Assembly (NCBI RefSeq): GCF_009696275.1
Contig: NZ_VUMI01000028.1
Span: 1-64,000, forward strand
Direction of reading: 5' to 3'
Origin: Eisenbergiella porci
Lineage (GTDB): Bacteria; Bacillota; Clostridia; Lachnospirales; Lachnospiraceae
Length of the DNA stretch: 64,000 bases
How positions within the stretch are numbered: the stretch's first letter is position 1; every line of letters begins with the position of its first letter. Positions 120-25,651 of this stretch are shown piece by piece. A program made the translations under genes and the position numbers. The notes under the pieces are model-generated. The model saw only the letters and a list, made by a program, of their open reading frames with translations, made no database searches and was not told the DNA's origin.

Positions 120-1334
120 CTAACACCAAAATAATATATCATTATTTTTATATTGCAGCTGAATGCCTTGTCTTTTATGTAATGCATACCCAATGACAAT
201 CCCTGCATTAACAGGCAGCCCCCTGGCTGATACTGTAATTGTTTGCTTTCTCTCAAATACGCATAATGCAGACTTTATTTTTGCCAATGTTTTCAGCGTG
301 ACTGTTCTTTCTTCTTTTGTTGACTTCGTTGTCTGTTTTAATGGAAGCTGCACAAGATCAAAATTAATATTTGTATCATTAACTATGCTGCTTCCTATAA
401 AACCTATCCTGTTTTTATTAATTCGATAACTAAATTCATTGTATAAATTCCATCCTGTTTTATCGGCGAAATTATATTTATAAAATGTAAAACCAGCCTG
501 GTCTCCCCTGTCAGAAATATCACCCATGGAAATAATAGGATAGGCTCCTTCTGCATGTTTTGTTGTACCAACCATAATCCTGCATATTTTTGACTCGTCG
601 TCATAGCCATATTCCAACTTATGGGAATGCCCGCATAGATAAAATACACTCCTGTTTCTTATCATAAATTTTAAGTTTTCCATTTCCACAGGCGTTAAAA
701 ATTTTAAATCATGATGGGCAAGTATAATTAAAGGACGCTGTATGCCCGTATTGGAAATTATTTTTCTTACAGACTCTGAATCAAGAAATAATTCTCCTTC
801 TTTTTCTTGTCCGTAACATGTAATTGCAGTATTTAAACATAGTATATCTACTTTGTCCTCTTGATAAAAACGGTGGAACGATCTGCATTCATTACTCTCC
901 TCCGGATGAATTTGTTTCTCTATCATGTCAAAAAATTCAAATCTTTGTAATAGATAGCTTTGTTCCTGATTTGTTAATGTTTCCCGGAATTTAGGATAGC
1001 TTTGTTTTATTTTTTCTATTTGCTCCTTATCACATGACTGCCTGGCCAAATCATGATTTCCCGGAACCAGATAAACGTTATCTGATGAAACATGCAGTGC
1101 TTTGGCAATTTCCCGAATATAGTCAGCAACATTAACAGCCTGTTGATAGAGATCTTCTTTCAAGGAATTATCTGCCATATAAGCCGAATCCCTGTAATCC
1201 CCTGTGACAAAGAGATAATCTGCTTCAAATCCGTTACTCTTTATAAACTCCGGAAGCTCATCCCTCAAAATATTGGAAATGACATTGTTGAATTCTTTAT
1301 TCATATGTACATCAGAAATGTGCATCCATCTCAT
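120..1334 (-). CDS. Calcineurin-like metallophosphoesterase with an unusual C-terminal extension, possibly truncated
   Basis: The protein has the metal-binding motifs of the calcineurin-like phosphoesterase family: Asp8-x-His10 in HISDVH, Gly45-Asp46, the GNHD signature at 92-95, a His-His pair at 207-208 and GHSH at 235-238. It should be a two-metal phosphodiesterase or phosphatase; the substrate cannot be told. Residues after about 290 are not part of the catalytic fold. The last 60 or so (ITVSARGLPVNAGIVIGYAL and following) resemble the opening of a SAVED-type sensor domain, but this is a weak visual match. The gene ends at a TAG, yet the same frame then stays open for 39 codons to the window edge, so the ORF may be cut by a nonsense mutation. 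No partner effector is visible on this side of the window. The catalytic call is firm; the role is unknown. Confidence 0.85.
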   Translation of the reverse strand: MRWMHISDVHMNKEFNNVISNILRDELPEFIKSNGFEADYLFVTGDYRDSAYMADNSLKEDLYQQAVNVADYIREIAKALHVSSDNVYLVPGNHDLARQSCDKEQIEKIKQSYPKFRETLTNQEQSYLLQRFEFFDMIEKQIHPEESNECRSFHRFYQEDKVDILCLNTAITCYGQEKEGELFLDSESVRKIISNTGIQRPLIILAHHDLKFLTPVEMENLKFMIRNRSVFYLCGHSHKLEYGYDDESKICRIMVGTTKHAEGAYPIISMGDISDRGDQAGFTFYKYNFADKTGWNLYNEFSYRINKNRIGFIGSSIVNDTNINFDLVQLPLKQTTKSTKEERTVTLKTLAKIKSALCVFERKQTITVSARGLPVNAGIVIGYALHKRQGIQLQYKNNDILFWC

Positions 1335-1435
1335 TTTTATCCCCCTATGTATAGCCGTTACGGCTAATTGAGTATATTGTTAAAACAATCCGATTATTAA
1401 ATAGAAATCTAATTCTGCCCACCACACAGAAAAAA

Positions 1436-2032
1436 TTATGAATCAAATAGTGACAGCTGGCCTTTTAGTTCTTTTTCCAGAGGGGCAGGGCGTTTATGGA
1501 GGAGGAAGTCGGTGGCATTATCGTCGAAAAGCCAGGTTTGTACCTCCTGGGGGCTTAGTATGAGGGGCATACGGGGATGGACGGAACTTATGGAGGGATT
1601 GGCCTGTGTGGTAAGGATGACAAAGCGGTCCCCGTCCTCATAGTGTCGGTAAAAACCGGCGAAGAGAAGGACACGGCGATCCGGCGCCCTGAAAAAATAT
1701 TTATCTTTTTGTTCCGACCATTCGTAGAAGCCGGTTGCAGGTATGATGCATCGTCTTTGCTTTACGCTTTCCCGGAAGGTTTTCTTTTCCAGAGCGGTTT
1801 CGCTGCGGGCGTTGAAAATGACTCCTTTATTACTGTAGGAAGGGAATCCCCAGGTAAATTCCCCGGCGGTCAGCTGATCGCTTTGCTCACTGCCGGCAAG
1901 GATAACGGGGGCTTTGGCAGACGGATAAACGTCCCGCTCTTTGCAGGAAACAAGAAGCGCATCGTCTATCTGGCGGATCAGTTTTTCAATTTCTTTTGCG
2001 GTTTCGTCATTGATATAGTATCTTCCACACAT
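1436..2032 (-). CDS. SOS response-associated peptidase (SRAP/HMCES/YedK family)
   Basis: This 198-residue protein has the full SRAP active site: catalytic Cys2 directly after the initiator Met (MCGRYY), Asn74 in NARSET, Glu104 in GFYEW and His152 in VHPRMP. The known family reacts through the Cys2 amine and thiol with abasic sites in single-stranded DNA, forming a protective thiazolidine DNA-protein crosslink. Length is normal for bacterial members. The start is fixed because Cys must be residue 2. It is followed upstream (185 bp away) by a UvrD-type helicase on the same strand, which suits a DNA-damage role, but hairpins in the gap suggest separate transcription. Confidence 0.93.
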   Translation of the reverse strand: MCGRYYINDETAKEIEKLIRQIDDALLVSCKERDVYPSAKAPVILAGSEQSDQLTAGEFTWGFPSYSNKGVIFNARSETALEKKTFRESVKQRRCIIPATGFYEWSEQKDKYFFRAPDRRVLLFAGFYRHYEDGDRFVILTTQANPSISSVHPRMPLILSPQEVQTWLFDDNATDFLLHKRPAPLEKELKGQLSLFDS

Positions 2033-2078
2033 TCTTTGTTCTCCGTTTTCTTAACTGTTCAGTACCTTCACAGTTATT

Positions 2079-2167
2079 GCAAAAATCCATCCTAAATCGC
2101 CTTCAGCGATGGGATTTTTGCACTCCTGAATCACTTTCTTACGGTCTGTGCAGTAAATGCACAGACC
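2079..2167. terminator. Two hairpins between the helicase and SRAP genes
   Basis: Positions 2079-2121 form GCAAAAATCCATC paired with GATGGGATTTTTGC around a 16-base loop. Positions 2143-2167 form a perfect 10-bp stem, GGTCTGTGCA and TGCACAGACC, with loop GTAAA. Both lie just downstream of the minus-strand helicase gene and probably end its transcript; the first carries a T-rich flank on either strand. Confidence 0.55.
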
Positions 2168-2217
2168 TGTTGGACAGTTACCCGTTTGCTTACTAAGTTT
2201 CCCATAATTCCCTTCTT

Positions 2218-4359
2218 TTATTCCTCTACAAACTCCATGGCGCTGAAGGCTTTCAGGAATTCTTTGGCGCCATAGCCCTCAAATTCTATTTCCATCATGG
2301 CATCGTCCTCACGGATAACTGTGCCGGGGCCATATTTTCTGTGGATTACGGTTCTTGGCTGTATTATTTCTTTTCCGGCAGGCTGCGGCTGCGAGGGTTC
2401 CTTCGGCAGCTCCGGTAAATCTGCTTCCAGCGTCTCTTCTGCCCTGCTTTGCCTGGCTTCTATTTCCTGCCGTACCATTTTTCTCAGCTCCTGCAAATTT
2501 TCCTGCGCCGGATCCGCTGTTTCTTCCTGAATCAATTCAGGCGGAATCATGCGGATAAAACGGCTTTCTCCCGGCATGACGCGGTTGTCCGGATTGGTAT
2601 AATAGGAAAGCTCCAGGAAATCCTTTGCCCTGGTCATTCCCACAAAAAAGAGCCTTCTTTCCTCGTCCTCTTCCTCAAAGCCCGCGGTCCGCAGCGGAAT
2701 CAGCCCATAATTCACCCCGATGATAAAGCAAAAGGAAAATTCCAGTCCCTTGGAGGCATGGAGTGTCATGAGCTTTACCCTTCCGTCTTCTTCCTTCGTT
2801 TCCTGCTCCGGAAGACCGTAAAGCACCGCATCATTTAAAAAGCTCCGCAAGCGGTCCGGCAGATTTTCCCCCTCCGAGGGCTGCTGCCGAAATAAGGATT
2901 CCAGCATGGCAAGGATCCTTTCCTTATCCTTCTGAAAAGAAGCAGAGGTGGGATGCAGATATCCATCCAGGGAAAAATAATCATACAGCGCCTGCGGGCT
3001 GTCAAGCGACGGGCAGCATTCCGGAAAGGCCAGCATCCTTTCATATAATGGCAGCTTCAGATCTTTCTCCCCATGAAGCACTGCCGCAGCCGTTTTTTCC
3101 GTGATCGGCTTTCCATTCCTGCGTTCTCCGTATTCTTTATGGCTGAGGGCATAGATCCCCGCCGGATAATCCTCCCGGCTGAGGGAAAACCGGAGCACCT
3201 GTAGCAGCCAGTATTGTACAGGACAGTCCCGGAGCGTGTGCTTCACCGAAACCTGAAAGGGAATTCCTTCCTTGGCAAATACCTCCTCCAATACACCGGA
3301 CTGATTCTGGAGACGGTAAAACACCGCAATCTGTCCAGGAGAAATGCCGCTGTCCTGCAGTCCTTTAATCCGATCCGCCAGATAACAGGCCTCCTGGAAG
3401 GGATCGTAGTGTTTCTTTACCACGATTTTGCTTCCCCGCTCCCTGTTTCCTGTAAGACTGCTGCCATATTGGGAAAATACGGACGCCGCTTCCAGAATGG
3501 AGGCGCTGGAACGGTAGTTTACCGGCAGGGACAGCTCCGTAGCCTGGTATTCTGTGCGCAGTGTATAAAAAACATTACAGGCGCTTCCTCTCCAGCTGTA
3601 AATCACCTGATTGGGATCGCCCACGGCAAACAGCCTGGCTCCCTTATCAAGCAGTCTCCTCACCAGCGCAAGCTGCCATGCATCGCAGTCCTGCACCTCG
3701 TCGATAATTACCCAGGCCGGCCTCCATTCCACTTCGGCAAGCAAAGCCTCCGTATTCCGGATAAGGTCGGCAAAGGTCATCCGGTTGCGCGCCCGCTTCT
3801 CTTCCTTCATAGCCTGCAGCAAAACCGGCATATCATCCTGAATCCGCCTTCCGGGAGGGGAGGGCAGTTTTTCCCGGCCGTTTTCTGACGGCACAGCTTC
3901 CTCATCCTCCTGCTCAAGACGCTTCTTCAGCCGGTTCCGGTATTTGATCTGCAGCTTTCTGTCCTGGATCAGGTGCAGCGCCATATCCAGCTCCTCTTCC
4001 GGGTCCATCACCAGAAAATCCGGCGTATAGCCCAGCTGCTGCACCGGAAGCCTTTCGCGCAGAAGCTGGAGGGCCACGCTGTGGAAGGTCCCAAAATAAC
4101 GCATCTGCACAAGCTCACCCTGATCACGCATAGCGCCCAGGCGTTCCCTGATCTCCCCGGCTGCTTTGTTGGTAAAGGTGAGAACCACCATATCCTCACA
4201 ATTCACCCCGCAGGCCTCGTGCAGATACTTCACCTTGGCTGTAAGCACCGTGGTCTTGCCGCTTCCCACATTGGCGTTGACAAGGCAGGCGCTGCTGTCG
4301 TTAAACACCGCCTTTCTCTGATATTCATTCAATTCTGCCGGCAATACTTGTTCCTGCAT
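2218..4359 (-). CDS. UvrD/Rep-type superfamily 1 DNA helicase
   Basis: A 713-residue SF1A helicase. Visible motifs are the Walker A loop NANVGSGKTT (28-37), a DEVQDCD Walker B, motif III GDPNQVIYSWRGS, motif V LMTLHASKGLEF and motif VI VGMTRAKDFLEL. It should unwind DNA 3'-5' in repair or replication restart. The C-terminal tail after about residue 640 is charged and ends in a Tudor-like stretch (RKYGPGTVI) as in many PcrA-type proteins. It is rather short and divergent for PcrA, so it is probably an accessory paralogue rather than the housekeeping copy. AGGAAGG lies 6 bases upstream of the ATG. The small gene upstream overlaps its start by 31 bases. Confidence 0.9.
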   Translation of the reverse strand: MQEQVLPAELNEYQRKAVFNDSSACLVNANVGSGKTTVLTAKVKYLHEACGVNCEDMVVLTFTNKAAGEIRERLGAMRDQGELVQMRYFGTFHSVALQLLRERLPVQQLGYTPDFLVMDPEEELDMALHLIQDRKLQIKYRNRLKKRLEQEDEEAVPSENGREKLPSPPGRRIQDDMPVLLQAMKEEKRARNRMTFADLIRNTEALLAEVEWRPAWVIIDEVQDCDAWQLALVRRLLDKGARLFAVGDPNQVIYSWRGSACNVFYTLRTEYQATELSLPVNYRSSASILEAASVFSQYGSSLTGNRERGSKIVVKKHYDPFQEACYLADRIKGLQDSGISPGQIAVFYRLQNQSGVLEEVFAKEGIPFQVSVKHTLRDCPVQYWLLQVLRFSLSREDYPAGIYALSHKEYGERRNGKPITEKTAAAVLHGEKDLKLPLYERMLAFPECCPSLDSPQALYDYFSLDGYLHPTSASFQKDKERILAMLESLFRQQPSEGENLPDRLRSFLNDAVLYGLPEQETKEEDGRVKLMTLHASKGLEFSFCFIIGVNYGLIPLRTAGFEEEDEERRLFFVGMTRAKDFLELSYYTNPDNRVMPGESRFIRMIPPELIQEETADPAQENLQELRKMVRQEIEARQSRAEETLEADLPELPKEPSQPQPAGKEIIQPRTVIHRKYGPGTVIREDDAMMEIEFEGYGAKEFLKAFSAMEFVEE

Positions 4360-4613
4360 GAAAATCCTTCCTGTCTGATCGTTCGTATTTTAAAAAGCCG
4401 TCTTAAAGAAACCATGCTATCTTCCGTTGAATACTCATTTTCATGAAAATGAAGCTTTACATTCAGAATTTCCTGTGTTTCTTCAGACAATCTGCAAAAA
4501 GCCGCCGTCCTTCTCACTTCCTGACTCCATGAGACAAATTCTTCCTTCGCTTTGTTATAATCTGAACATTCCGTAAGCGCTGTCCCCTGTTGTATTAATT
4601 TCTGTATTAACAT
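4329..4613 (-). CDS. Small protein translationally coupled to the upstream ATPase; possible effector-associated N-terminal domain
   Basis: A 94-residue soluble helical protein of unknown function. The ATG at 4613 is preferred to an upstream GTG because AGGAG, formed within the stop codon region of the ATPase gene, lies 5 bases upstream; the two genes are therefore coupled. The pattern LIQKLIQQGTAL followed by FVSWSQEV resembles helical N-terminal adaptor segments often seen in front of effector or STAND modules (visual impression only). The last 14 residues or so read through the ribosome-binding site and start of the helicase gene, so the original 3' end may have been lost and a longer protein truncated. 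Treat it as a real but possibly decayed gene. Confidence 0.6.
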   Translation of the reverse strand: MLIQKLIQQGTALTECSDYNKAKEEFVSWSQEVRRTAAFCRLSEETQEILNVKLHFHENEYSTEDSMVSLRRLFKIRTIRQEGFSCRNKYCRQN

Positions 4614-4621
4614 ACCCACTC

Positions 4622-5797
4622 CTAAATAAATGCCCAGCGGATATAAAACAAAAAGAGATTATCCTGTATATGCATAATGTCATCCTTCCATTCCATTACC
4701 TGATACAGTGCACCCAAATTGTTTAAAATATCCTGCCACTTTTTTAATGTATCCTTTACCTTTTCCCTGCCTATTTTAGAATTCACAAGATTATTCTGAA
4801 TCCGCTCCGTTAACTCCGCCAGCTCAATTTCCACAAGCGGAGGATTATCTGCCAGAACCTTAAGGATAAGGCCGTAGATATCCCTGTGAGATTGATCCTT
4901 CAACTCATACTGCAATCTTTTCTGTCCTCTGGTGGGCGGCCCTGCTTTTAATATCCGTACAACATCCGCATATGGAAGATTTATACAGGTAAACCTGCAG
5001 CTCTCTTCTACTACTTCATCCGTAATAACCGGATTATCAGAAGGCAGCAGACCAATATTCAGACAAATAGCCTGCATTAACTGAGGCGAATGAATACTTT
5101 CCAGCGCTATCCTCGAAATCAATGCCTCGTCAATCCTGATATTCAGTTCCTTAAAGCCCTTCCGGGCAATTTCCTCCAGCTGTTTCTGCTCCCATGGCTT
5201 TATTTCTATTACGGAAATCCTGCCTGCCAGATCCGGATTCAGCCGGATAGCGTCATCTGAACGGTGAGGCAGGGAAATTACCACTGCTTTAAAACCCAGG
5301 CGAATTACTTCTTTCAGCTGGCACGCAATATCATATTGAATTTCCGGTGAAGCATAGTGAAAATCATCAAGTACAAAAATTTTATCTTTTGCCTTGAAAT
5401 ACTCTATTACCCTATCCTTATTGCCTTTGTAATTTTTTTTAACCGTCGTTGATTTCTGTTCCATTTTAGATAAATCAGACTGTTGTTCGCTTACCTGGGC
5501 ATCCATGGACAAACCGACTTTTCTGCCAAGTATTTCCCAAAAATCCGAAGCTTTAGCAAAATCATTTCCCGACATAGATACAATACGTTCCTGTCCAATC
5601 ACCCTCTCACACAGTACTGTCTTCCCCGTTTTGGAAGGCCCTATGATATACGTTAAATACCCGTCTATCTTTAAACTCTGCTGTAATCTTTCTTCATAAG
5701 TATACTTTGTCTCTACAGACTGTCTTACTACATATGTCAGTTCCGGATATGTCCCCGGTTTAAATACTTTTTGATACCTTTCATCCACCTTTATCAC
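4622..5797 (-). CDS. AAA+/STAND-like ATPase with N-terminal TYVVR motif
   Basis: A 391-residue P-loop ATPase. It starts with a short leader containing PGTYPELTYVVR, then Walker A GPSKTGKT (about 53-60), Walker B VLDDFHYASPE, a sensor strand VVISLPHR, and the arginine-containing GRISVIEIKPW segment. The C-terminal third is helical with a winged-helix look and ends in FLFYIRWAFI. Such stand-alone ATPases with this leader often sit beside small effector genes in accessory islands. Here it is coupled to the 94-residue ORF downstream. Function is unknown; a defence or toxin-antitoxin-like role is inference. AT-rich upstream DNA contrasts with its neighbours. Confidence 0.75.
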   Translation of the reverse strand: MIKVDERYQKVFKPGTYPELTYVVRQSVETKYTYEERLQQSLKIDGYLTYIIGPSKTGKTVLCERVIGQERIVSMSGNDFAKASDFWEILGRKVGLSMDAQVSEQQSDLSKMEQKSTTVKKNYKGNKDRVIEYFKAKDKIFVLDDFHYASPEIQYDIACQLKEVIRLGFKAVVISLPHRSDDAIRLNPDLAGRISVIEIKPWEQKQLEEIARKGFKELNIRIDEALISRIALESIHSPQLMQAICLNIGLLPSDNPVITDEVVEESCRFTCINLPYADVVRILKAGPPTRGQKRLQYELKDQSHRDIYGLILKVLADNPPLVEIELAELTERIQNNLVNSKIGREKVKDTLKKWQDILNNLGALYQVMEWKDDIMHIQDNLFLFYIRWAFI

Positions 5798-5799
5798 CC

Positions 5800-5850
5800 C
5801 TTTTTATACTTTTATATGTATTATAGCACTTATATATATCTTTTTATACT
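5800..5850 (-). promoter_or_regulatory. Candidate promoter of the ATPase gene with flanking direct repeats
   Basis: On the minus strand TATAAT lies at 5825-5820, preceded by TGC (extended -10); the -35 is weak. The sequence CTTTTTATACT occurs twice exactly 40 bp apart (5800-5810 and 5840-5850), one copy over the -35 region and one downstream of the -10. Spacing close to four helical turns suggests an operator pair, but no regulator is encoded beside it. Confidence 0.4.
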
Positions 5851-5939
5851 ATTTCATTTGTATTTACCGCCTGAATAGTACTAAAATTATGTTTATATTA
5901 CATTTTCTTATAAAAATGAACTTCAATTCCTATCATTTA

Positions 5940-6287
5940 TCAACACTGTATATCTAACAGCAGAATCACATTAATAACAGGCTCCTCATACGGATGAATT
6001 TTTTTAACTTCCCTAACCGCAGTCTCCACAATCTCTACCGGGCACCGCACCCCCATCTTCATCTCCGTACCAAAGCAGATTTCCCCGGTTTTTCCGTTAA
6101 ACGGGCTGCTGCCCGGTAACGGCCGCCAGGATCCCCTTGAGCAATGGAAAGCTGCCACATGGTCATAATTTCCGACCCGGCAGGCGCCGATATGCGTCAG
6201 CGCATCCCGTACCGGCTCAATATATTCTTCCGGCACATATATTTCCAGCTTCACTTCCGTAACATCAATATTCACTTTTTCCTCCAT
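5940..6287 (-). CDS. Stand-alone NIF3/YqfO-type PII-like domain protein
   Basis: A 115-residue protein matching the CutA/PII-like insertion domain found inside NIF3/YqfO/YbgI proteins: a ferredoxin-like core beginning KLEIYVPEEYIEPVRDAL, a central glycine-rich segment, and the C-terminal HPYEEPVINV signature. The stand-alone form lacks the metal-binding NIF3 half, so it is likely a trimeric small-molecule or metal-binding protein. No clear operon partner. Function unproven. Confidence 0.8.
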   Translation of the reverse strand: MEEKVNIDVTEVKLEIYVPEEYIEPVRDALTHIGACRVGNYDHVAAFHCSRGSWRPLPGSSPFNGKTGEICFGTEMKMGVRCPVEIVETAVREVKKIHPYEEPVINVILLLDIQC

Positions 6288-6400
6288 CAGTTTACCCTTG
6301 CCGCGCCGCTTCCTTTTTTTCCACTATCCTGCGTCTATATCATCTGGGCGCTGCGCAGATTACTTTATTATTTGTAACAGTCCTGTCTGAACCGTTACTA

Positions 6401-9103
6401 TTATTTCTTATTTATATTTCTCATAAGCTTCTCATGGATCCTCATCCGCTCCTCCGGTGAGGCTTCCTCCTGCGTACGGATATCAAACCGCAGGCCGGCG
6501 GGCGCATCCGTATAAAAGCGGAAAATATTCTGAAGGCTGCGGTAATTGCTCTCCTCCAGCACCCAGTCCCGGTAAAAAGCATGGGATGTATACAGTATCA
6601 GCCGGCTGTCCTTCCACTCCACCATGGGAACCGTAGAAAGAAAGGCGGCAAAGGGATCGCCTTTTTTCTGCAGGAAAGCACAGAACTCCTCCCATTTTCC
6701 CGCCTGTTCAAGCTCCTTCAGGGTAAAAGGGCTGCGGATAAACGGCAGCGGCTCTTTTGTATCCTTGTACATTTTCACAGGCGGCTGGGATTCCTCTGAC
6801 AGATTCTTAAGCCCCCACAGCACCAGCCCCTTGTCCAGTCGGTAATCCCCGATGCAGGCCGCGCAGCCTGTTTCACAGGAACAGCCGCCTACCAGCATGA
6901 TCGCATTCTCAATGATACGGGGCATGCAGTCCGCTATTTTTTCCGCATAGCCCAGGCCGCCCGCATACTGATCATAAAAAAACAACAGGGTATCCATTCC
7001 CCCAAAGGGTATCTCCTCCTCTCCGGATAGCTGCGGATCCCATTCCTGCTCTCCCGCCGCATTGGAGGACATGGCCATTCCGATATCCTCCTGCTCCGTC
7101 ATGGTCACCATCATCGCCGCATTCTTCAGCGCATACATGAGGCCTTCAAAATGGTTGTTGCGGATGATTTTGCCGTTTTCCCGGATCTGCATCAGCCGCC
7201 TGTAGGTCCTCGCCACATTGGCGGGTATCGGTATCCAGGTGCTCTCCGTATCAATATCCTTGCAAAGCGGCGCGGGAAGCTGTTCAAAGCCCAGGCTCTG
7301 ATGATTATGGAACTGCAGCTTCCGGTACATGGTCACAATCGTATTTACATTCACATCCCCGAACACGATTTTTGTCCGTTTATATTCCGATTCCCTGACG
7401 CTGTGCAGTATCCGGATTTCCGAAGCAGATACCGGCATGGTATAAAAGTTACCCTGAAAGGGCGCCGCCAGGGCGGTATGGGTCTCCGGATCCAGCTGCG
7501 TCACCTGATACTGGACGCCGTCATGAAGGTAAACCGCTCCCTCATGGAGTTCCCGGAAGGCCTGCATTTCATCCATTTCCGTAATTTCCCTTCCGTTGTC
7601 CTTAAGGATAAGCTTGTACCTGATCTTATCAATATTACGCAGGCTGAAATCCCCTGCGGGAAATGCGCTGCCTGACCAGGCAAATTTCCCATTCTGCCCG
7701 TTCAGCTCCTTTACCTTCAGCAGCACAGGAATCGTCTCCCCCAGATCCGGGAACACGGAAATGTCATCCAGCGTCAGCGGAAGCTCCGCGGCGGCGGCCC
7801 GGATGTGCGCCAGCTCAATGAAAAGATTGTTTTTATCCACAATTGCGTTTTCGCTCGCCCCGGAAAACAGCCAGTCCGGGTTCACAGCCACGTACTGGTC
7901 AAAGGGCAGATTCTCCAGAATCAGATAATTACAGCAGGGCTTCCCATTCCTTCCCGCGCGGCCCGTCTGCTGCCAGAAGGAAGCCCTCGTTCCCGGATAC
8001 CCCACCAGCACCGTAGTCTCTACTTTACCGATATCGATGCCAAGCTCCAGCGCGTTGGTGGATATCAGGCCGGTGAGCGCGCCGGATATCATTTTATTTT
8101 CGATTTCCTTACGCTCCGCAGGCGTATAGCCGCCCCGGTAGCCGGATATCCGATTAGCCAGAGAGGCAAAGCAGCCTTCCCCTTCCAGAATATCCGAAGC
8201 CTCCTTCAGCACCACCTCCACGTTTCTCCGCGATTTGGCAAACGCTATGAAGCTCCTGTTCTCCTCCACCAGCCGCACTATCACCTGGGAGGCCACCGCC
8301 GCTGAGGGCACCTGCCCATAGTCCTTTCCGTCCTTCCCCTTGATCTTGGGCGGCTGGAGGAATCTGTATGTTCTCGCCCCCGCAGGAGATCCGTCCCTGG
8401 AAATCCGCGAAAATTCCTGCCCGCATATTTCCGACGCCAGCTCCACCGGATTGGCGATGGTGGCGGAACTGCACAAAAACTGCGGTGCGCTCCTGTAGTA
8501 TCTGCAAATCCGCGAAAGACGCCTGAACACGTTTGCCAGATGGGAGCCGAAGGCGCCTCTGTAGGTGTGCAGCTCATCAATGACCACATATTTTAAATTG
8601 GAAAAAATAAAATCAAAGCCATACCTGCTGTGGTTAGGCAGGAACGCGCCGTTGAGCATTTCCGGATTGGTCAGTATCAGATTGGCATTCTTCCGGATTC
8701 GGCTCCGCTCGCTGGCCGGCGTATCCCCGTCATAGACTCCCGCACAGACCCGGTCCTCCCCGAAATAATCCACCAACGGCCGGATGGCCCTGTATTGATC
8801 CGCCGCCAGCGCCTTGGTTGGATAGATAAAAATTGCCCTGGCCAGGGGATTTTTCAGGATTTCCTGAAGAACCGGCAGCAGAAAACCCAATGTTTTGCCG
8901 CTGGCTGTGGAGGTGGTGATGACCAGATTTTCTTTTTTCTGCGCGCGCTCAAACATCTCCGCCTGATGGCAGTATAAACGGGGAATTCCCGCATTTTCAA
9001 GATAGCCTTTCAGCTCCGGCAGCATATCCTGCGGAAACTCTGAAAAAACGGCCTTCCTTTCCGGGTATTCTTTTTCATAGACCACAAGCTCCTTAATTTC
9101 CAT
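6401..9103 (-). CDS. DEAD/DEAH-box helicase with DUF1998 (MrfA/YprA family)
   Basis: A 900-residue SF2 helicase. Walker A is TTSTASGKT (63-71), motif II is DELH in VVIDELHTYRG, motif III is SSATIANP, and motif VI is QQTGRAGRNG. The C-terminal DUF1998 region has the four-cysteine cluster CSCETGCAACIG (Zn-binding in this family). Bacillus MrfA repairs mitomycin-type DNA damage with the nuclease MrfB; no mrfB-like gene is seen here. A C-terminal tail of about 120 residues after the cysteine cluster makes it longer than Bacillus MrfA (about 750). It follows the DUF4132 gene by 162 bp on the same strand. The family call is firm; the pathway is inferred. Confidence 0.88.
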   Translation of the reverse strand: MEIKELVVYEKEYPERKAVFSEFPQDMLPELKGYLENAGIPRLYCHQAEMFERAQKKENLVITTSTASGKTLGFLLPVLQEILKNPLARAIFIYPTKALAADQYRAIRPLVDYFGEDRVCAGVYDGDTPASERSRIRKNANLILTNPEMLNGAFLPNHSRYGFDFIFSNLKYVVIDELHTYRGAFGSHLANVFRRLSRICRYYRSAPQFLCSSATIANPVELASEICGQEFSRISRDGSPAGARTYRFLQPPKIKGKDGKDYGQVPSAAVASQVIVRLVEENRSFIAFAKSRRNVEVVLKEASDILEGEGCFASLANRISGYRGGYTPAERKEIENKMISGALTGLISTNALELGIDIGKVETTVLVGYPGTRASFWQQTGRAGRNGKPCCNYLILENLPFDQYVAVNPDWLFSGASENAIVDKNNLFIELAHIRAAAAELPLTLDDISVFPDLGETIPVLLKVKELNGQNGKFAWSGSAFPAGDFSLRNIDKIRYKLILKDNGREITEMDEMQAFRELHEGAVYLHDGVQYQVTQLDPETHTALAAPFQGNFYTMPVSASEIRILHSVRESEYKRTKIVFGDVNVNTIVTMYRKLQFHNHQSLGFEQLPAPLCKDIDTESTWIPIPANVARTYRRLMQIRENGKIIRNNHFEGLMYALKNAAMMVTMTEQEDIGMAMSSNAAGEQEWDPQLSGEEEIPFGGMDTLLFFYDQYAGGLGYAEKIADCMPRIIENAIMLVGGCSCETGCAACIGDYRLDKGLVLWGLKNLSEESQPPVKMYKDTKEPLPFIRSPFTLKELEQAGKWEEFCAFLQKKGDPFAAFLSTVPMVEWKDSRLILYTSHAFYRDWVLEESNYRSLQNIFRFYTDAPAGLRFDIRTQEEASPEERMRIHEKLMRNINKK

Positions 9104-18163: not shown

Positions 18164-18550
18164 TCACTGCTTCATCAGTTTTTTCTCCGTGGCCATCAGC
18201 CCGTTTTCATAGTTTTCTATCTTCTGGTTCAACCGTTCCAGAGAACGCTGCATATCCTCCATCCTGGCCGTCAGCTGATCCCTCTGCTCCATCAGCAGCG
18301 CCTTTCTGGCATCAATGGTGGAATCCCCCTGTTGGAACAGCGCAACATATTCTATCAGCGCCTCTATCTGGACCCCTGCGCTTCTCATACACTTCATCAG
18401 CTCTATCCATCTGCAGGATTCCTCATCATAGTTCCTGATGCCGCTTTTATTCCTGGGCACCTGGGGAATCAGCCCGATACGTTCATAGTAACGCAGGGTA
18501 TCCTGCGTCATACCATATTTTCTGCTCACTTCCGCAATTGTCATAATCAC
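18164..18550 (-). CDS. MerR-family transcriptional regulator
   Basis: A 128-residue regulator with the MerR N-terminal winged helix (MTIAEVSRKYGMTQDTLRYY, then GLIPQVPRNKSGIRNYDEE) and a long C-terminal coiled-coil helix rich in Glu, Gln and Arg for dimerisation. The metal-type C-terminal cysteines are absent, so the ligand is probably not a soft metal. The GTG at 18550 is preferred as start because AAGGAG lies 5 bases upstream; the ATG two codons on is 11 bases away. It lies 162 bp upstream of the GH2 gene on the same strand. Confidence 0.9.
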   Translation of the reverse strand: MIMTIAEVSRKYGMTQDTLRYYERIGLIPQVPRNKSGIRNYDEESCRWIELMKCMRSAGVQIEALIEYVALFQQGDSTIDARKALLMEQRDQLTARMEDMQRSLERLNQKIENYENGLMATEKKLMKQ

Positions 18551-18705: not shown

Positions 18706-18823
18706 TGCATCAACCTGGTTTCCAAGTCTATCATAGCACCTTGTCCCTGCTCCAGGTCAAGAGCCAGTGCACACAGCTTATAAAAAATGCATGGTACAGT
18801 AGCTATTTACGCACGAAATATGC

Positions 18824-18863
18824 TTGACAGAAAGTGGCCCTGCGCATATAATGAACATTGTTC
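18824..18863 (+). promoter_or_regulatory. tetR promoter with overlapping operator palindrome
   Basis: A near-consensus sigma-A promoter: TTGACA (18824-18829), 17-base spacer, TATAAT (18847-18852). The palindrome GAACATTGTTC (18853-18863) starts at the next base, over the expected transcription start. The same palindrome, GAACATCGTTC, occurs upstream of the next gene (19566). This points to autorepression by the TetR protein. Confidence 0.75.
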
Positions 18864-18939
18864 GGTTGCGAATTTTTCTTTCAAACTAACGATTGATGCA
18901 CTATCGCAGCCATGTCTGCGATATAAAAGAGGTATAAGC

Positions 18940-19500
18940 ATGAATAAAAATGTCACTTCCAGGCAGGAGCTGATTGACGCTGCCATGGAAATTGCACGCA
19001 CGGAAGGCGTCCATAAAGTGAACATCCGCAACATAGCCCAAAAATGCTCCATTTCAGTGGGTGTCCTGTATAATTATATCCCGACAAAAACGGATTTGAT
19101 TTTTGCTGTGGTGGAAGGCTTCTGGACGGATGTTCTGCGCACCCTTACCGGTATGGAACCAAAAACAGCCGGATTTACCGACTTTGTAGCTTCCTTATAT
19201 GAAATAATGAATGCCCATCTCAATGATTTTGAACGTGACTGGCTTGCCCAACTGGAAACCATGGATCCGGAAGATAAGAAAAGAGGCCGCAGGCTGGAGG
19301 AACAGTGCTTCCAGGTACTCAGAAACCTTCTCCGGGATGCCCTTGACAGAGATCCGTCTGTTTCCCCGGATATCTGGAACGCGGACTATACGAAGGAACA
19401 GTTTGTGGAATTTGTTTTCCATCATTTGATGTCCCTGCTGCGCTCCGGCGCTGATAACTGCAGCTTTTTTACCAAAACCCTACAGCGGATTCTGTACTAA
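18940..19500 (+). CDS. TetR/AcrR-family transcriptional repressor
   Basis: A 186-residue regulator. The N-terminal 50 residues form the TetR helix-turn-helix (LIDAAMEIARTEGVHKVNIR, then SVGVLYNYIPTKTDLIFAVV); the rest is the helical ligand domain. The start at 18940 is chosen over the longer ORF because AGAGG lies 7 bases upstream and the family begins about 10 residues before the first helix; the upstream codons overlie the promoter. The operator palindrome over its own promoter and upstream of the truncated gene at 19595 indicates a small regulon. Confidence 0.9.
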   Translation: MNKNVTSRQELIDAAMEIARTEGVHKVNIRNIAQKCSISVGVLYNYIPTKTDLIFAVVEGFWTDVLRTLTGMEPKTAGFTDFVASLYEIMNAHLNDFERDWLAQLETMDPEDKKRGRRLEEQCFQVLRNLLRDALDRDPSVSPDIWNADYTKEQFVEFVFHHLMSLLRSGADNCSFFTKTLQRILY

Positions 19501-19594: not shown

Positions 19595-19738
19595 ATGAAA
19601 GTATCAAAGAAAACTCTGCTTCTTATTGCAGGCACGGTATGGCTGATCGCCGGAATTAATATTCTGCGCTTAACTGCCGGTCAGTTGCAGATATTTTCCT
19701 CTTTCTGCATCCTGAACTGTACAGGCGTAACCCCGTAA
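19595..19738 (+). pseudogene. 5' stump of a TetR-controlled membrane protein gene
   Basis: The ORF begins MKVSKKTLLLIAGTVWLIAG with a hydrophobic helix typical of the first membrane segment of a small membrane protein, and has a strong AAGGAGG site. At about 19678 the protein-like sequence stops making sense and the frame runs on antisense to the 3' end of leuA, ending at 19736-19738 after 47 residues. The leuA stop codon is at 19681-19683, so the break sits exactly at the end of leuA. I read this as a gene truncated by deletion or rearrangement. Alternatives are an assembly join or a genuine single-helix peptide. Confidence 0.55.
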
Positions 19739-21690
19739 GACTTTTTAAAAAGCCGGTTAAAATGCTCCACGCTTTCATACCCTACGTCTGCGGCAATGGA
19801 TTCCACGGTCTGGCCCGATTCCTTCAAAAGGGCCCTGGCCTTGCGCATCCTGGCTTCCCTGACCACATCCTGGAAATTCATGCCTGTTCTGCTTTTGATA
19901 TATTTTGAAATATAGGGCCTTGAAAGGTTAAAATTCTCAGCCAGATTCTCCAGCGTCACCTCCGAATAATGCCCATTGATATATTTTATAATGTCCACGA
20001 TTCTTTCCTCCCTGCCTTCCCGAAGATTTTCATTTTCCGCCAGCTTATTGCCCGCCGATACCAGCGCCGCAACGGAGCTTTTGATGATATCCTCATCGAT
20101 TCCCACGCCCCAGTACTCCTTCCCTTTGCAGGTAATTCCCACATAGGCCGCCGCCTTGGAGGAGGAGCCCCTGGAAATCGCGTGCTCTTCATAAACCGTC
20201 AGCTCATAGCTGATTCCAAAATACATCTTAATGGCGTTACTGACCGCATCCAGCCGCCCGTTACCGGTAGTTTCAATCACTCTTTTTTCTTTTCCCTGTT
20301 CAATGGTCACCTGCGCCGTAATCCCGTTCTCCTGCCGGAAATGGCATTCAGGGATATGAAAAATGCTTCTTGGCAAAATATAATTTTCTTCAAAAATCTG
20401 ATAAATATCCGCCGGTGCCAGCTCCTGGTGCCTTCTGTCGGAAACGCCCTTGACCAGATATCCCACCTCTTCCTTCATGCCGTTCGGAAGGGAAATCCCA
20501 TAATTCTGCTTCAGTATAAAAGCAATCCCTCCCTTACCCGACTGACTGTTAATCCGGATAACATCGGATTCATACTCCCTGCCCACGTCCCTGGGATCTA
20601 TCGGCAGGTAAGGCACCGTCCACCGGCTGCCGCTCTTGCCTTCCTTCCACCAGGCCATGCCCTTGGAAATCGCGTCCTGATGGGAGCCAGAAAATGCCGT
20701 AAATACCAGGTCGCCGGCATAAGGCGTTCTTTCATTTACCTTCATTCCCGTCAAAAGCTCATAGGTCTCCCGGATTTTCATAATATTTCCAAAATCCAGC
20801 CCCGGTTCCACGCCATGGCAGACCATATTCATGGCCACCGTAACAAGATCCACGTTCCCGGTCCGCTCTCCGTTCCCGAATAAGGTGCCCTCCACTCTGT
20901 CCGCGCCGGCCAGGATTCCGAATTCTGCGTCGCTGATACCGCAGCCCCTGTCGTTATGAGGATGTACGCTGAGCACAACCCCATCCCTGTATTTCAGATT
21001 TTTATGGATATATTCCACCTGACAGGCAAATACATGCGGCATGGCAACCTGAACCGTGGTAGGTATGTTGATAACGGCCTTATGCTCCTTATCCGGCTTC
21101 CACACATCCAGCACCGCATTGCATACCTCCACCGCGTAATCCACTTCTGTCCCGGGAAAGCTCTCCGGGCTGTATTCAAAGGTAAAGTTCCCTTCTGTTT
21201 CTTCCGCCAGCGTCTTAAGCAGCTTCGCGCCGTCCACTGCCAGCTTTTTCACCTCTTCCCTGCTCTTTCCAAACACCTGCTCCCGCTGTGCCACAGAGGT
21301 GGAATTATAAAGGTGGACGATGGCATGGGGCGCGCCCTTCACGGCTTCAAAAGTCTTTCTGATAATATGCTCCCTCGCCTGGGTAAGCACCTGAATCGTC
21401 ACATCCTCCGGAATCATATTTCTTTCGATTAGCGCCCTGATAAACGCATATTCCGTATCCGAGGCCGCCGGGAATCCCACCTCGATTTCCTTAAAGCCGA
21501 TTTCCACCAGCATCCTGAAAAATTCCAGCTTTTCTTCCAGTCCCATCGGCTCAATGAGCGCCTGGTTCCCGTCTCTGAGGTCCACGCTGCACCAAATCGG
21601 CGCTTTTTCAATTGTATTCTTTTTCACCCAGTCATAAGTAACCTCGGGCGGTATAAAATAAGCTCTGCCATACTTTTCTGCTGCTTTCAT
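19681..21690 (-). CDS. leuA: 2-isopropylmalate synthase fused to an AraC-type DNA-binding domain
   Basis: A 669-residue protein. Residues 1 to about 560 are a complete LeuA of the long (yeast/actinobacterial-type) class: [13 protein letters not shown] for the metal and substrate site, the HPHNDRGCG motif, [13 protein letters not shown], and a C-terminal regulatory domain ending [20 protein letters not shown]. It makes 2-isopropylmalate from acetyl-CoA and 2-oxoisovalerate. Directly after this, residues about 567-665 form an AraC/XylS double helix-turn-helix ([19 protein letters not shown]; then [20 protein letters not shown] and YGVTPVQFR). There is no stop or frameshift between them. A T-box leader precedes the gene. 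Other leu genes are not adjacent. The fusion is the unusual part. Confidence 0.92.
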
Positions 21691-21813: not shown

Positions 21814-22120
21814 AAAAAAAGTCTCTATAAAAATGACTTCCCGAAAATCCGGTCATTCTTATAGAGACGTAAATTCACCTTTACGCGGTACCACTCTATT
21901 TCATGCTGCTTACGCACCATGCACTCAACGGCACTAACATGCCTTTCCCCTTTCTACGGCGGGTATTCCGTCTGCACCTACACAGCCCCTGAGGGTCTTC
22001 AGTCAGCTGCTCCAAGGTCAGTTCACAATCCGCTTCTGACTGTCTCGCACCACCCGGCAGTTCTCTGTTTTCCAGCTTCTGGCTACTACTCCTCTTCTCA
22101 GCATTTGTTTCATATTCAGT
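21814..22120 (-). ncRNA. T-box leader of leuA
   Basis: On the minus strand the leader carries a stem I region with the CAGAGAACTGCCGG and GGTGGTGCGAGACAG apical elements, a candidate specifier CTG (Leu, 22021-22019) in GTGAACTGACCTTGGAGC, the T-box core AGAGTGGTACCGCG (about 21896-21883), and a terminator hairpin GTCTCTATAA / TTATAGAGAC type followed by seven T at 21820-21814. Uncharged leucyl-tRNA should pair with the specifier and the T-box and allow readthrough into leuA, 124 bp downstream. The T-box class is certain; the specifier assignment is moderate. Confidence 0.9.
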
Positions 22121-22127
22121 TTTGTAA

Positions 22128-22156
22128 ATAGTAACACAGATTAAAAAATCCTACAA
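22128..22156 (-). promoter_or_regulatory. Candidate promoter of the T-box leader
   Basis: On the minus strand TTGTAG (22156-22151) and TACTAT (22133-22128) are separated by 17 bases, just upstream of stem I. Confidence 0.45.
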
Positions 22157-22395
22157 GGTATAATTTTAATCAATATTATTGATTTATTTTAACATTTATA
22201 TCTGACAGGGGAGTACAGCAGCAGTTCCTTCCCTTCTATTAACTGGTGAGAAGACAGTTTTTACCCTCATTTTTACTAAAGCCTTCGGGAAAGCGGCCAC
22301 ATCCATCCTGTGAAACTAAATTTCCAGGCCAAAGCCCACGGCTTCCGCCATACAAGCGCATTCACGCCTCCGTTTAAAGCATTGCCCGCAGTATA
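22157..22395. other. Intergenic stretch without a recognised gene
   Basis: The region between the leuA leader promoter and the terminators after tpiA shows no ORF with protein-like sequence, no RNA gene signature and no repeat matched elsewhere in the window. Confidence 0.5.
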
Positions 22396-22499: not shown

Positions 22500-23249
22500 C
22501 TATTTCCAGTTAACGATCTTTCCGAAGTCAGGCTTCAGAGCTGCTCCGCCTACCAGGCCGCCGTCAATATCAGGCTGAACGAACAGTTCCGGAGCGGTAG
22601 CTGCGTTTACAGATCCGCCGTACTGGATGCGGATAGCTTCTGCAGTTGCTTCGTCATAGATTTCACCGATGCATACACGGATTGCGGCACAAACCTCCTG
22701 CGCCTGCTCTGTGGTTGCAGTCTTGCCGGTTCCGATTGCCCAGATAGGCTCGTAAGCGATAACGGCTGTCTTAGCCTGCTCCGCTGTTACGCCCAGGAAT
22801 GCAATCTTAATCTGCTGACGAATCCAGTCGATAGTAATTCCCTGCTCTCTCTGAGTAAGGGACTCGCCGCAGCAGATAATAGGAGTAATGCCATGCTCAA
22901 AAGCTTTGAGAACCTTCTTATTAACGGTCTCATTCGTTTCTGCAAAATACTCTCTTCTTTCAGAATGTCCAATGATAACGTATTTAACGCCAACATCAGT
23001 AAGCATATCAGGAGCGATTTCTCCGGTGTAAGCACCTTTCTCCTCATAATACATATTTTCAGCACCGATTTCGATGTTGCTTCCCTTAGCAGCTTCAATA
23101 GCGGGGATGATATCAATTGCAGGCACACAGAATACTACGTCAGCATCTTCTGTTGCTACAAGAGGCTTTAAGGTATTGATTAATTCAACAGCCTGGCTGG
23201 GAGTCATGTTCATCTTCCAGTTTCCGGCGATGATTTTCTTTCTTGCCAT
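22500..23249 (-). CDS. tpiA: Triosephosphate isomerase
   Basis: A 249-residue TIM with the family landmarks: N-terminal GNWKMN with Lys12, catalytic His in [10 protein letters not shown], catalytic Glu in [15 protein letters not shown] (flexible loop 6), and YGGSVNAAT and GGLVGGAAL phosphate-binding loops. It interconverts dihydroxyacetone phosphate and glyceraldehyde-3-phosphate. It is last in a gap-pgk-tpiA operon, 82 bp after pgk, with a hairpin between them. Confidence 0.98.
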
Positions 23250-23289
23250 GATTATGGTCTCCTTAATATAAAAGTGAATTTTATCGTTT

Positions 23290-23320
23290 GCGGGAGGCAG
23301 CTCGCAGGCTGTCTCCCCGC
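23290..23320 (-). other. Intercistronic hairpin between pgk and tpiA
   Basis: GCGGGAGGCAG (23290-23300) pairs with CTGTCTCCCCGC (23309-23320), a GC-rich stem without a following T-tract. It may be a processing or stability element that sets unequal expression within the glycolytic operon. Confidence 0.5.
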
Positions 23321-23331
23321 GTCAAATAATA

Positions 23332-24540
23332 TTATTTGTCATTTGCCGCTGCTACTCCGGGAAGCTCTTTGCCTTCCAGGAATTCCAGGGAAGCGCCGCC
23401 GCCGGTGGAGATGTGGCTCATCTTGTCACCGAAGCCAAGCTGGTTAACAGCCGCTGCGGAATCGCCGCCGCCGATGATGGTGGTTGCATCAGTTTCAGCC
23501 AGAGCCTTTGCAACTGCAATGGTTCCTTTTGCAAGAACAGGGTTCTCAAATACGCCCATAGGCCCGTTCCAAACAACGGTCTTGGCGGACTTAACAGCGT
23601 CTGCATAAGCCTCTGCCGTCTTGGGTCCGATATCCAGTCCCATCATGTCGGCAGGGATTGCATCTGCAGCATAAACCTCAACTTCGATTTCTGCATCGAT
23701 CGGGCTGGGGAAGGACTTTGCAACAACAGCATCTTCGGGAAGAAGCAGCTTCTTGCCAAGCTTCTCAGCCTTTTCCATCATTTCCTTGCAGTATTCAACT
23801 TTTTCATCATCCACTAAGGATGCGCCGATTTCATATCCTTTTGCTTTCAGGAAGGTAAATGCCATACCGCCGCCGATGATCAGGGTATCGCATTTTTCAA
23901 GCAGATTAGAGATAACATTCAGCTTATCTGCAACCTTTGCGCCGCCAAGAATAGCAACGAAAGGTCTTACGGGATTCTCTACGGCATTTCCAAGGAAGTC
24001 GATTTCCTTCTGCATCAGATAACCAACAACTGCGGTATCAACCAGCTGTGCCACACCAACATTGGAGCAGTGTGCTCTGTGAGCGGTACCGAAAGCGTCG
24101 TTTACAAAAACGTCGCACAGGGAAGCCAGCTCTTTGGAGAAAGCTTCGCCGTTCTTGGTTTCTTCTGCTCTGTAACGGGTATTCTCAAGAAGGATAACGT
24201 CTCCGTCCTTCATAGCTTCTACTGCTGCTTTTGCATTAGGTCCTACCACTTCAGGATCTGCTGCAAATTTTACTTCCTGGCCAAGCAGCTCGGAAAGACG
24301 TGCTGCAACAGGTGCCAGAGACAACTCCGGCTTGGGTTCTCCCTTAGGCTTTCCAAGATGAGAGCAAAGGATAACCTTTCCTCCGTCTGCGATCAGCTTT
24401 TTGATAGTGGGAAGCGCCGCAACCAGACGGTTTTCATCTGTGATTTTGCCTTCCTTCAGCGGTACGTTGAAGTCGCATCTGCAAAGGACGCGTTTTCCTT
24501 TTACGTTGATATCATCAACGGATTTCTTATTCAATGACAT
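23332..24540 (-). CDS. pgk: Phosphoglycerate kinase
   Basis: A 402-residue kinase of standard length. Seen are the substrate-binding RCDFNVPL segment, SHLGKPKG, the [11 protein letters not shown] motif, the hinge region [11 protein letters not shown], and the C-terminal nucleotide site with WNGPMGVFE and [13 protein letters not shown]. It transfers phosphate from 1,3-bisphosphoglycerate to ADP. It sits between gap and tpiA. Confidence 0.98.
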
Positions 24541-24568
24541 GGTAAAAACCTCCTTAAAAATGAAAGAA

Positions 24569-24596
24569 GGATCCGGCCCTCATCAGACCGGACCCT
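24569..24596 (-). other. Intercistronic hairpin between gap and pgk
   Basis: GGATCCGG and CCGGACCC (24569-24596) form an imperfect stem in the 91-bp gap. With no clean T-tract it is more likely an RNA processing or stabilising structure than a terminator. Confidence 0.4.
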
Positions 24597-24631
24597 TTAT
24601 GAGCCTATGCCTTTACACCAGCTGGATTAAA

Positions 24632-25651
24632 TTATGCTTCCAGCAGCTTGCCAAAGTGTTTGATTGTACGAACCATCTGGCTTGTGTAAGAATTCTCATT
24701 GTCGTACCAGGAAACAACCTGTACTTCAGATGTATTCTCGTCAATAGGAAGAACCATGGTCTGAGTAGCATCAAACAGGGAACCATATCTCATACCGATG
24801 ATATCGCTGGATACGATTTCGTCTGTATTGTAACCGAAGGATTCGTTTGCAGCAGCCTTCATAGCATCGTTGATAGCTTCTTTTGTAGGCTGTCCTTTAA
24901 CTACTGCTGTCAGGATTGTGGTAGATCCTGTAGGGGTAGGAACACGCTGAGCGGAACCGATCAGCTTGCCGTTCAGTTCAGGGATTACCAGGCCGATAGC
25001 CTTAGCAGCACCTGTGCTGTTGGGAACGATATTCACTGCTGCTGCACGGCTTCTTCTCTTGTCACCCTTTCTCTGAGGACCATCCAGAGTCATCTGATCG
25101 CCTGTGTAAGCGTGGATTGTGCACATAATACCGCTCTGGATCGGGAAAGCGTCGTTAAGAGCTTTAGCCATGGGAGCCAGGCAGTTTGTTGTGCAGGAAG
25201 CAGCGGAGATGATGTGATCATCTTTGCTCAGGGTTTCATGGTTTACATTGTAAACGATGGTAGGAAGATCGCTTCCGGCAGGTGCGGAAATGATAACGTG
25301 CTTAGCGCCGGCATCGATATGAGCCTGTGCTTTTGCTTTGGAGGTGTAGAATCCGGTACATTCCAGAACTACGTCTACTCCGATTTCTCCCCAAGGAAGC
25401 TCTGCAGCGTTAGCTTTTGCATAAATCTTGATTTCTTTTCCATCAACAGTGATGGAATCTTCGCCGAAAGATACCTTGTCTGCCAGAGCGTATCTGCCCT
25501 GTGTTGAATCATATTTCAGTAAGTGAGCCAGCATCTCGGGAGATGTTAAATCATTGATTGCTACGATTTCAAATCCTTCTGCTCCGAACATCTGTCTGAA
25601 AGCAAGACGTCCAATACGGCCAAAACCATTAATTGCTACTTTTACTGCCAT
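24632..25651 (-). CDS. gap: Glyceraldehyde-3-phosphate dehydrogenase
   Basis: A 339-residue type I GAPDH. The NAD-binding start is [16 protein letters not shown], the catalytic cysteine lies in [17 protein letters not shown], and the C-terminus contains [15 protein letters not shown]. The N-terminal fingerprint followed by Asp33 (INDLTSPEM) suggests NAD preference and a glycolytic role. AGGAGGAATT precedes the ATG. First gene of the gap-pgk-tpiA operon. Confidence 0.98.

Follow-up and report, generated by a model that had tools for sequence, protein, structure and literature searches.

The DNA-binding domain of PutA is a ribbon-helix-helix, that of BirA is a winged helix, and Ada, a DNA repair enzyme and autoregulatory activator, carries an AraC-type helix-turn-helix (HTH), as does the protein described here. 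The sensor parts of AraC-type response regulators are not known to be pathway enzymes. PutA, a proline dehydrogenase and repressor of the put operon, has been described as both an enzyme and a direct regulator of its own pathway, and BirA as a biotin ligase that is also the bio repressor (PMC6978683). Both Geobacter sulfurreducens and Pelobacter carbinolicus have been described as carrying a T-box upstream of leuA (PMC2494555). In mycobacterial LeuA, leucine is described as closing a loop of the LeuA_dimer domain (PMC11057210).

The leuA gene of the window (the whole 64,000-nucleotide stretch of DNA that was analyzed) encodes a 2-isopropylmalate synthase (IPMS) fused to an AraC-type domain. 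The sequence, together with joint gain and loss among relatives, points to an enzyme and a predicted DNA-binding function in one protein, which would make it a candidate trigger enzyme. Like PutA, the fusion would both catalyze a metabolic step and directly regulate transcription in its own pathway, and like BirA it would combine an enzyme and a transcription factor in one chain (PMC6978683). PutA, however, is catabolic and a repressor, whereas in the fusion the enzyme is biosynthetic, its DNA-binding domain is AraC-type, and the protein is probably an activator; BirA represses the biotin operon, whereas the site predicted here appears private to the fusion's own gene. The signal for Ada is self-methylation and no metabolic pathway enzyme is involved. 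The matched chains of Mycobacterium tuberculosis LeuA (1sr9, 3fig, 3hps) stop at the regulatory domain, without a DNA-binding domain. By sequence, the solved structures closest to the HTH part are the AraC-type response regulators 6swi and 3lsg (YesN) (E 1.2e-14 and 9.4e-12), which, unlike the fusion, are named as two-component regulators. Compared with known leuA T-box systems, the T-box in fusion loci is combined with, or apparently replaced by, an AraC operator. A search of the open-access literature (titles and abstract starts, among the matches listed) found no description of a LeuA-AraC fusion.

The fusion gene and its domains

The gene is a single uninterrupted ATG frame on the minus strand, in which a complete LeuA is followed by an AraC double HTH. 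Its features are as follows.

19681..21690 (-), leuA-araC fusion gene, 669 aa (frame, Pfam, NCBIfam)
20767..21600 (-), LeuA catalytic domain, HMGL-like, residues 31-308 (Pfam)
20509..20712 (-), IPMS_D2 post-catalytic domain, residues 327-394 (Pfam)
20041..20424 (-), LeuA_dimer regulatory domain, residues 423-550 (Pfam; loop motif conserved)
19966..20040 (-), variable linker, residues 551-575 (mean pairwise identity 0.43)
19708..19944 (-), AraC-type DNA-binding domain, HTH_18, residues 583-661 (Pfam and model)
19885..19920 (-), recognition helix of HTH1, residues 591-602 (model secondary structure and conservation)
19735..19770 (-), recognition helix of HTH2, residues 641-652 (model secondary structure and conservation)

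An earlier note on this DNA had proposed that a complete LeuA is joined to an AraC domain. The 669-aa frame and its four Pfam domains, all far over cut-off, bear this out; HTH_18 scored 79.5 bits (cut-off 33.6) and LeuA_dimer (PF08502) 93.7 bits. The best NCBIfam match was NF002991 (2-isopropylmalate synthase), with 790 bits against a cut-off of 455, and the equivalog TIGR00970 (leuA_yeast) reached 658, under its cut-off of 697. Seven residues that we take to be catalytic are invariant in the alignment of 111/111 intact fusions. The LeuA_dimer loop region (19 residues) is also well conserved among the fusions, its match to the mycobacterial LeuA loop being one of sequence alignment. The gene product thus looks, from its sequence, like a working 2-isopropylmalate synthase with a leucine-binding domain.

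In the AlphaFold model, the AraC part forms seven helices at residues 563-668. Since the model is a monomer with a pTM of 0.58, the orientation of the domains is not informative. The matches listed by fold comparison were LeuA-type and uninformative on the HTH part.

The genome that contains the window has a second, unfused LeuA (51% identity). The upstream neighbors of the fusion gene (22500-25651, same strand) resemble tpi, pgk and gap of glycolysis. Downstream lie a MerR-type-looking gene (18164-18550, minus strand) and a TetR-type-looking gene (18787-19500, plus strand). Beside leuA in the window, no further leucine gene was seen.

Distribution of the fusion

The fusion was confirmed in 113 sequences, apparently mostly from Lachnospiraceae, and LeuA-AraC is a conserved architecture. 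Among 13 genomes of the genus, including the window's own, nine have the full-length fusion and one more has a copy truncated at the edge of a contig; two (G006 and G009) have an unfused orthologue of 82% identity, and in one the orthologue was not found. Judged from the titles of relatives, the family searched would be Lachnospiraceae. Its 397 genomes gave at least 89 listed matches with an open frame of at least 662 aa, a hand count based on frame length alone, which does not prove fusion. An AraC domain was present in 70 of the 87 proteins of the first alignment, which left out L016, L035, L057, L087 and the duplicate L076. The relatives with titles, nearly all metagenome-assembled genomes (MAGs), are assigned to Lachnospiraceae, Roseburia, Eisenbergiella, Lachnoclostridium, Eubacterium, Clostridium and wider groups, and the match reached residue 660 or beyond in 31/31. 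A search of 291 genomes of the class found three fused-length frames outside the family (G618, G482 and G620), all with an AraC domain. In one Eubacterium MAG (L087) the leuA-araC frame is interrupted, and the matching frame covers query residues 266-665 only.

Mean pairwise identity among 70 fused proteins was 0.64 for the two HTHs, 0.65 for LeuA_dimer and 0.43 for the linker, and the two recognition helices contain many nearly invariant residues. By these measures of conservation, the AraC part is kept under constraint. Many of the genomes being metagenome-assembled, the fusion might be thought a product of chance or of assembly, but it occurs in 113 sequences from many genera, several of them single-contig genomes, and its HTHs are about as conserved as LeuA_dimer; such an origin is therefore extremely improbable. 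A second full-length LeuA was not found in 30 of 40 fused genomes, and TIGR00973 gave no match over cut-off in any of the 40.

A predicted operator upstream of leuA

A 31-bp site with the consensus nnTAAAATAAATCAATnAAATTGATTAAAAT recurs upstream of leuA in fused genomes, at widely varied distances from the start codon. Its position in the window and those of the neighboring elements are given below.

22163..22193 (-), operator, 31-bp site, predicted target of the AraC domain (matrix, model and pattern scans)
22151..22156 (-), putative weak -35, TTGTAG (from spacing in relatives)
22128..22133 (-), putative extended -10, TGT-TACTAT, hexamer TACTAT (from the fixed spacing in relatives)
21860..22108 (-), T-box leader, Leu specifier CUG at 22019-22021 (RF00230, alignment)

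With up to three mismatches, the pattern was found once in the 64 kb of the window, against 0.00 expected from 100 shuffles. Scored with a leave-one-out matrix, 66/70 fused loci exceeded 10.5, one of them marginally (L043, 10.7). The four below this value were L111 (8.2), L107 (6.7), L080 (6.5) and L075 (-16.8). Fifteen of the 17 unfused training loci scored 7.6 or less; the other two, L054 and L103, scored 31.1 and 25.8. In both, an AraC domain (53% and 41% identical to the HTH part of the window protein, respectively) lies in a different frame straight after the leuA stop, and these loci may represent a split gene or a sequencing frameshift. A search for an AraC frame after leuA in the remaining 15 unfused loci gave no match better than E 0.06 (less than 700 bp was searchable in L099 and L101).

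The unchanged matrix was then applied to a hold-out of 60 further genomes, from which L188, having no upstream sequence, was excluded. The site was present in 37/39 fused loci (scores 17 to 40) versus 0/20 unfused loci (none above 10.3; Fisher p 8e-14, phylogeny ignored); two of the unfused loci kept in the count, L227 and L228, have short upstream sequences (231 and 71 bp). The score exceeded the best of each locus's own 20 shuffles in 38/39 fused loci, but also in 2/20 unfused loci. The fused members of two other families all had the site (3/3; 24.4, 26.1 and 35.4), and six further unfused loci were without it (scores of 4.9 or less).

An arrangement of the site as 23-bp direct-repeat half-sites was considered: the repeats are clear in some loci (L054) but not set-wide, with an identity of 0.48 at offset 23 versus 0.56 at offset 13. 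A tandem pair of operator-like sites upstream of leuA was seen twice in the model scan described below (G336:C85:46569-46675 and G152:C12:153026-153117). One clade, with L049, L061 and others from L044-L062, has a terminator-like feature just upstream of the -10: the operator passes into a long inverted repeat, GGAAAGTGA...TCACTTTCC, and T residues come next.

Promoter geometry and T-box leader

The extended -10, TGNTANNNT, begins 57±1 bp from the start of the site in 99 of 110 sites. The -35 region is weak, with T 0.89, T 0.65 and G 0.45 at offsets 37-39. In the window the order is operator, just upstream of the -35, then -10, then T-box. Promoters dependent on an AraC-type activator usually pair a weak -35 with an extended -10. 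Taken with an operator abutting the -35, this layout suggests activation, and the fusion protein probably activates its own promoter.

The AraC domain might instead bind the operator and repress the promoter, for example when leucine is bound. Such negative autoregulation by leucine would be simple feedback. Moreover, a generic promoter scan did not pick the inferred promoter, and its one hit was a promoter-like hexamer pair within the operator. A single hit, nevertheless, is what shuffled sequence gives (mean 1.1), and the conserved spacing of the -10 and the weakness of the -35 speak against repression, which we regard as unlikely, if still deserving some weight.

The earlier note had also placed the gene under a leucine-type T-box, and this too is supported. 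The element in the window matched RF00230 with 91.6 bits (E 1.2e-20), slightly under the gathering score of 93, and the equivalent elements in the close relatives L006 and L007 scored 99 and 107 bits, over the gathering score. The specifier CUG, read from the alignment, and TGGTACCGCG are both present in the window. As judged by the TGGNACCGCG signature within 900 bp, a T-box accompanies 28/70 fused and 10/17 unfused training loci; the same signature was found in 5/39 fused and 15/20 unfused hold-out loci. Most of the fused loci examined thus have no T-box signature within 900 bp and their AraC operator stands alone, as if the T-box had been replaced. The window belongs to the group with both operator and T-box.

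Co-occurrence of the AraC domain and the operator

Seven contact positions, presumed to correspond to the base contacts of MarA and mapped by eye, were compared among the 113 fused proteins. By mechanical count, at least five of the seven predicted contacts are kept in 111 of them, and the possibility raised earlier that the AraC part lacks its recognition residues in all relatives does not hold. The exceptions, L075 (one kept) and L221 (two kept), both have strongly negative operator scores. In L221, the clear fused exception of the hold-out, the recognition helices read LSEEEFSAYMKEKSG and NVAEFEQEFQKKYG, the consensus for the first being LSKPYLSKYIKEKSG; the HTH of L075 is altered much as in L221. 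L075 and L221 still match HTH_18, with 64 and 70 bits, so the fold seems to be kept and the DNA-facing side not. Both retain the T-box signature.

Domain and operator were mapped by parsimony on a tree of 154 LeuA sequences with 311 branches. L057, L076, L085, L087, L188, L227 and L228 were left out of the tree set (contig ends, duplicate, short or no upstream sequence, broken frame), and L016 and L035 are absent from it; scores of the training loci come from a matrix built partly on those loci. Among 111 intact fusions, 108 have the site and three a weak one. Both split genes have it, and neither of the two fusions with a degraded HTH does, a class defined after the absence of the site in L075 and L221 was known. 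None of the 39 sequences without an AraC domain scored above 10.5 (three were weak).

Functional-AraC status changes 11 times on the tree, by one gain, eight domain losses and two losses of contact residues. All 11 changes share their branch and direction with a change of the operator, out of 311 branches. The operator alone decays, to a partial site, on three tips with an intact HTH (L080, L107 and L223); L080 and L075 are sisters on the tree, and L223 is placed next to L221. The node to which the gain is assigned has a support of 0.778, and deep nodes are weakly supported.

The AraC domain and the site before leuA come and go together, and the most likely reading is that the enzyme controls the gene from which it is made. 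That the enzyme could act as its own transcription factor, as the earlier note suggested, is supported by this co-occurrence in the matrix scores, the hold-out, the other families and the tree. The operator might alternatively belong to another regulator, with the AraC domain co-inherited or structural; the three intact fusions with partial sites would fit such a reading. Against it, eight domain losses were accompanied by operator loss, the two split genes keep both AraC domain and operator, contact residues and operator are both gone in two fused proteins, and the site is near-private to leuA. Another regulator is therefore improbable.

Targets beyond leuA

A sequence-only model was built from 55 sites, ten of the 65 available, mostly weaker ones, being omitted. 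It was used to scan 37 genomes, in each of which the best 150 of about 1,000-7,000 first-look candidates were scored. An E <2e-3 was obtained for the leuA site, and for no other listed site, in 21 of the 24 fused genomes; the leuA site was the best match but weak in G317 and G034, and was absent among the matches listed in G146. For the two split genomes, the leuA site gave 4e-4 in one and 0.6 in the other. The 11 unfused genomes, one of them without any match, showed background only, with a best value of 18.6 bits, compared with 17.6 bits or less for the listed second-best matches in fused genomes. Eight second-best matches were inspected, and none stood before an obvious leucine gene. Those of G001, G002 and G004 all fall in one gene resembling methylglyoxal synthase, four more lie in long frames, and that of G010 (13.4 bits) is seemingly intergenic.

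An exhaustive pattern scan, covering all candidates with up to three mismatches in 18 genomes (12 fused, 6 unfused), recovered the leuA site in 12/12 fused genomes with 0-2 mismatches. Only two extra places were found in them, one with 2 mismatches in G202, where a glycosyltransferase-like gene ends, and one with 3 mismatches in G012. The six unfused genomes gave two places, with 3 mismatches, and the reversed-pattern control gave 2 places in fused and 4 in unfused genomes.

The site was found in 0/30 regions upstream of leuC (23 fused and 7 unfused genomes, 500 bp each, start codons guessed as the first Met), with a best score of 0.5, and in 0/11 second LeuA genes of the genus, eight of which are from fused genomes. 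The ilv genes were covered by the genome scans only. With a single strong site before leuA and none at leuC or the second LeuA gene, the regulator appears to be dedicated to its own gene.

The union of a leucine-binding domain with a DNA-binding domain could instead serve a leucine-responsive regulator of several pathway genes, and the earlier note had envisaged reporting to leuCD, ilv and other promoters. This part of its proposal was not supported: the 30 leuC regions and 11 second LeuA genes are without the site, nearly every fused genome scanned has one strong site, at leuA, the listed second-best matches stay under the unfused background, and the better of the two extra pattern matches lies at the end of a glycosyltransferase-like gene. 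A role in several genes is accordingly judged to be rather remote.

An A/T-rich motif in front of leuC in the genus was considered as a LeuA-AraC site and was not assigned, as it is common to fused and unfused members and adjoins a LysR-type-looking divergent gene. Such a divergent gene is adjacent to leuC in the genus and a near relative (L144, L137, L130, L134, L132, L138, L136, L140 and L142), and leuCD there may have a regulator of its own. For some genomes we suspected that a LeuA precedes leuC in one operon, but the translations of six loci spoke against this. A long frame ends about 25 nt before leuC in several fused genomes, and it is surface protein-like where read (L117, L119 and L122); the same spacing occurs in L120, L121, L129 and L131.

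Discussion

The fusion, the conserved operator, their joint gain and loss, the fixed -10 spacing and the scarcity of other sites can all be read from the sequence itself. We assign a probability of roughly 0.8 to the reading that the fusion is an apparently working IPMS with a leucine-binding domain and, at the same time, a transcription factor dedicated to its own gene, acting through the 31-bp operator.

In the proposed mechanism, the C-terminal AraC domain would bind the operator directly, just upstream of the leuA -35, and the bound fusion protein would activate the leuA promoter. Leucine at LeuA_dimer, or another state of the enzyme, would lower binding or activation, and the enzyme would thereby adjust its own supply. 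Leucine as the signal is a natural reading of the LeuA_dimer domain. In the window, the Leu T-box would add control by tRNA charging downstream of the transcription start.

A fuller version would have one molecule forming a closed loop, in which the leucine-occupied state of the enzyme sets binding to one private operator, and the same pocket tunes both activity and supply. The module would have arisen once, moved between families with its operator, displaced the ancestral Leu T-box in most carrier lineages, and decayed several times to a plain or T-box-only LeuA. We hold this extended account at even odds.

The fusion is the only full-length LeuA found in 30 of the 40 fused genomes. The enzyme, the likely sensor, the regulator and the target are all defined in sequence, and natural variants with loss, splitting or altered contact residues exist. 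Together these make it testable whether feedback inhibition and feedback transcription operate through one ligand pocket, how an enzyme gains a DNA-binding domain together with its operator, and how a protein loop may displace a riboswitch.
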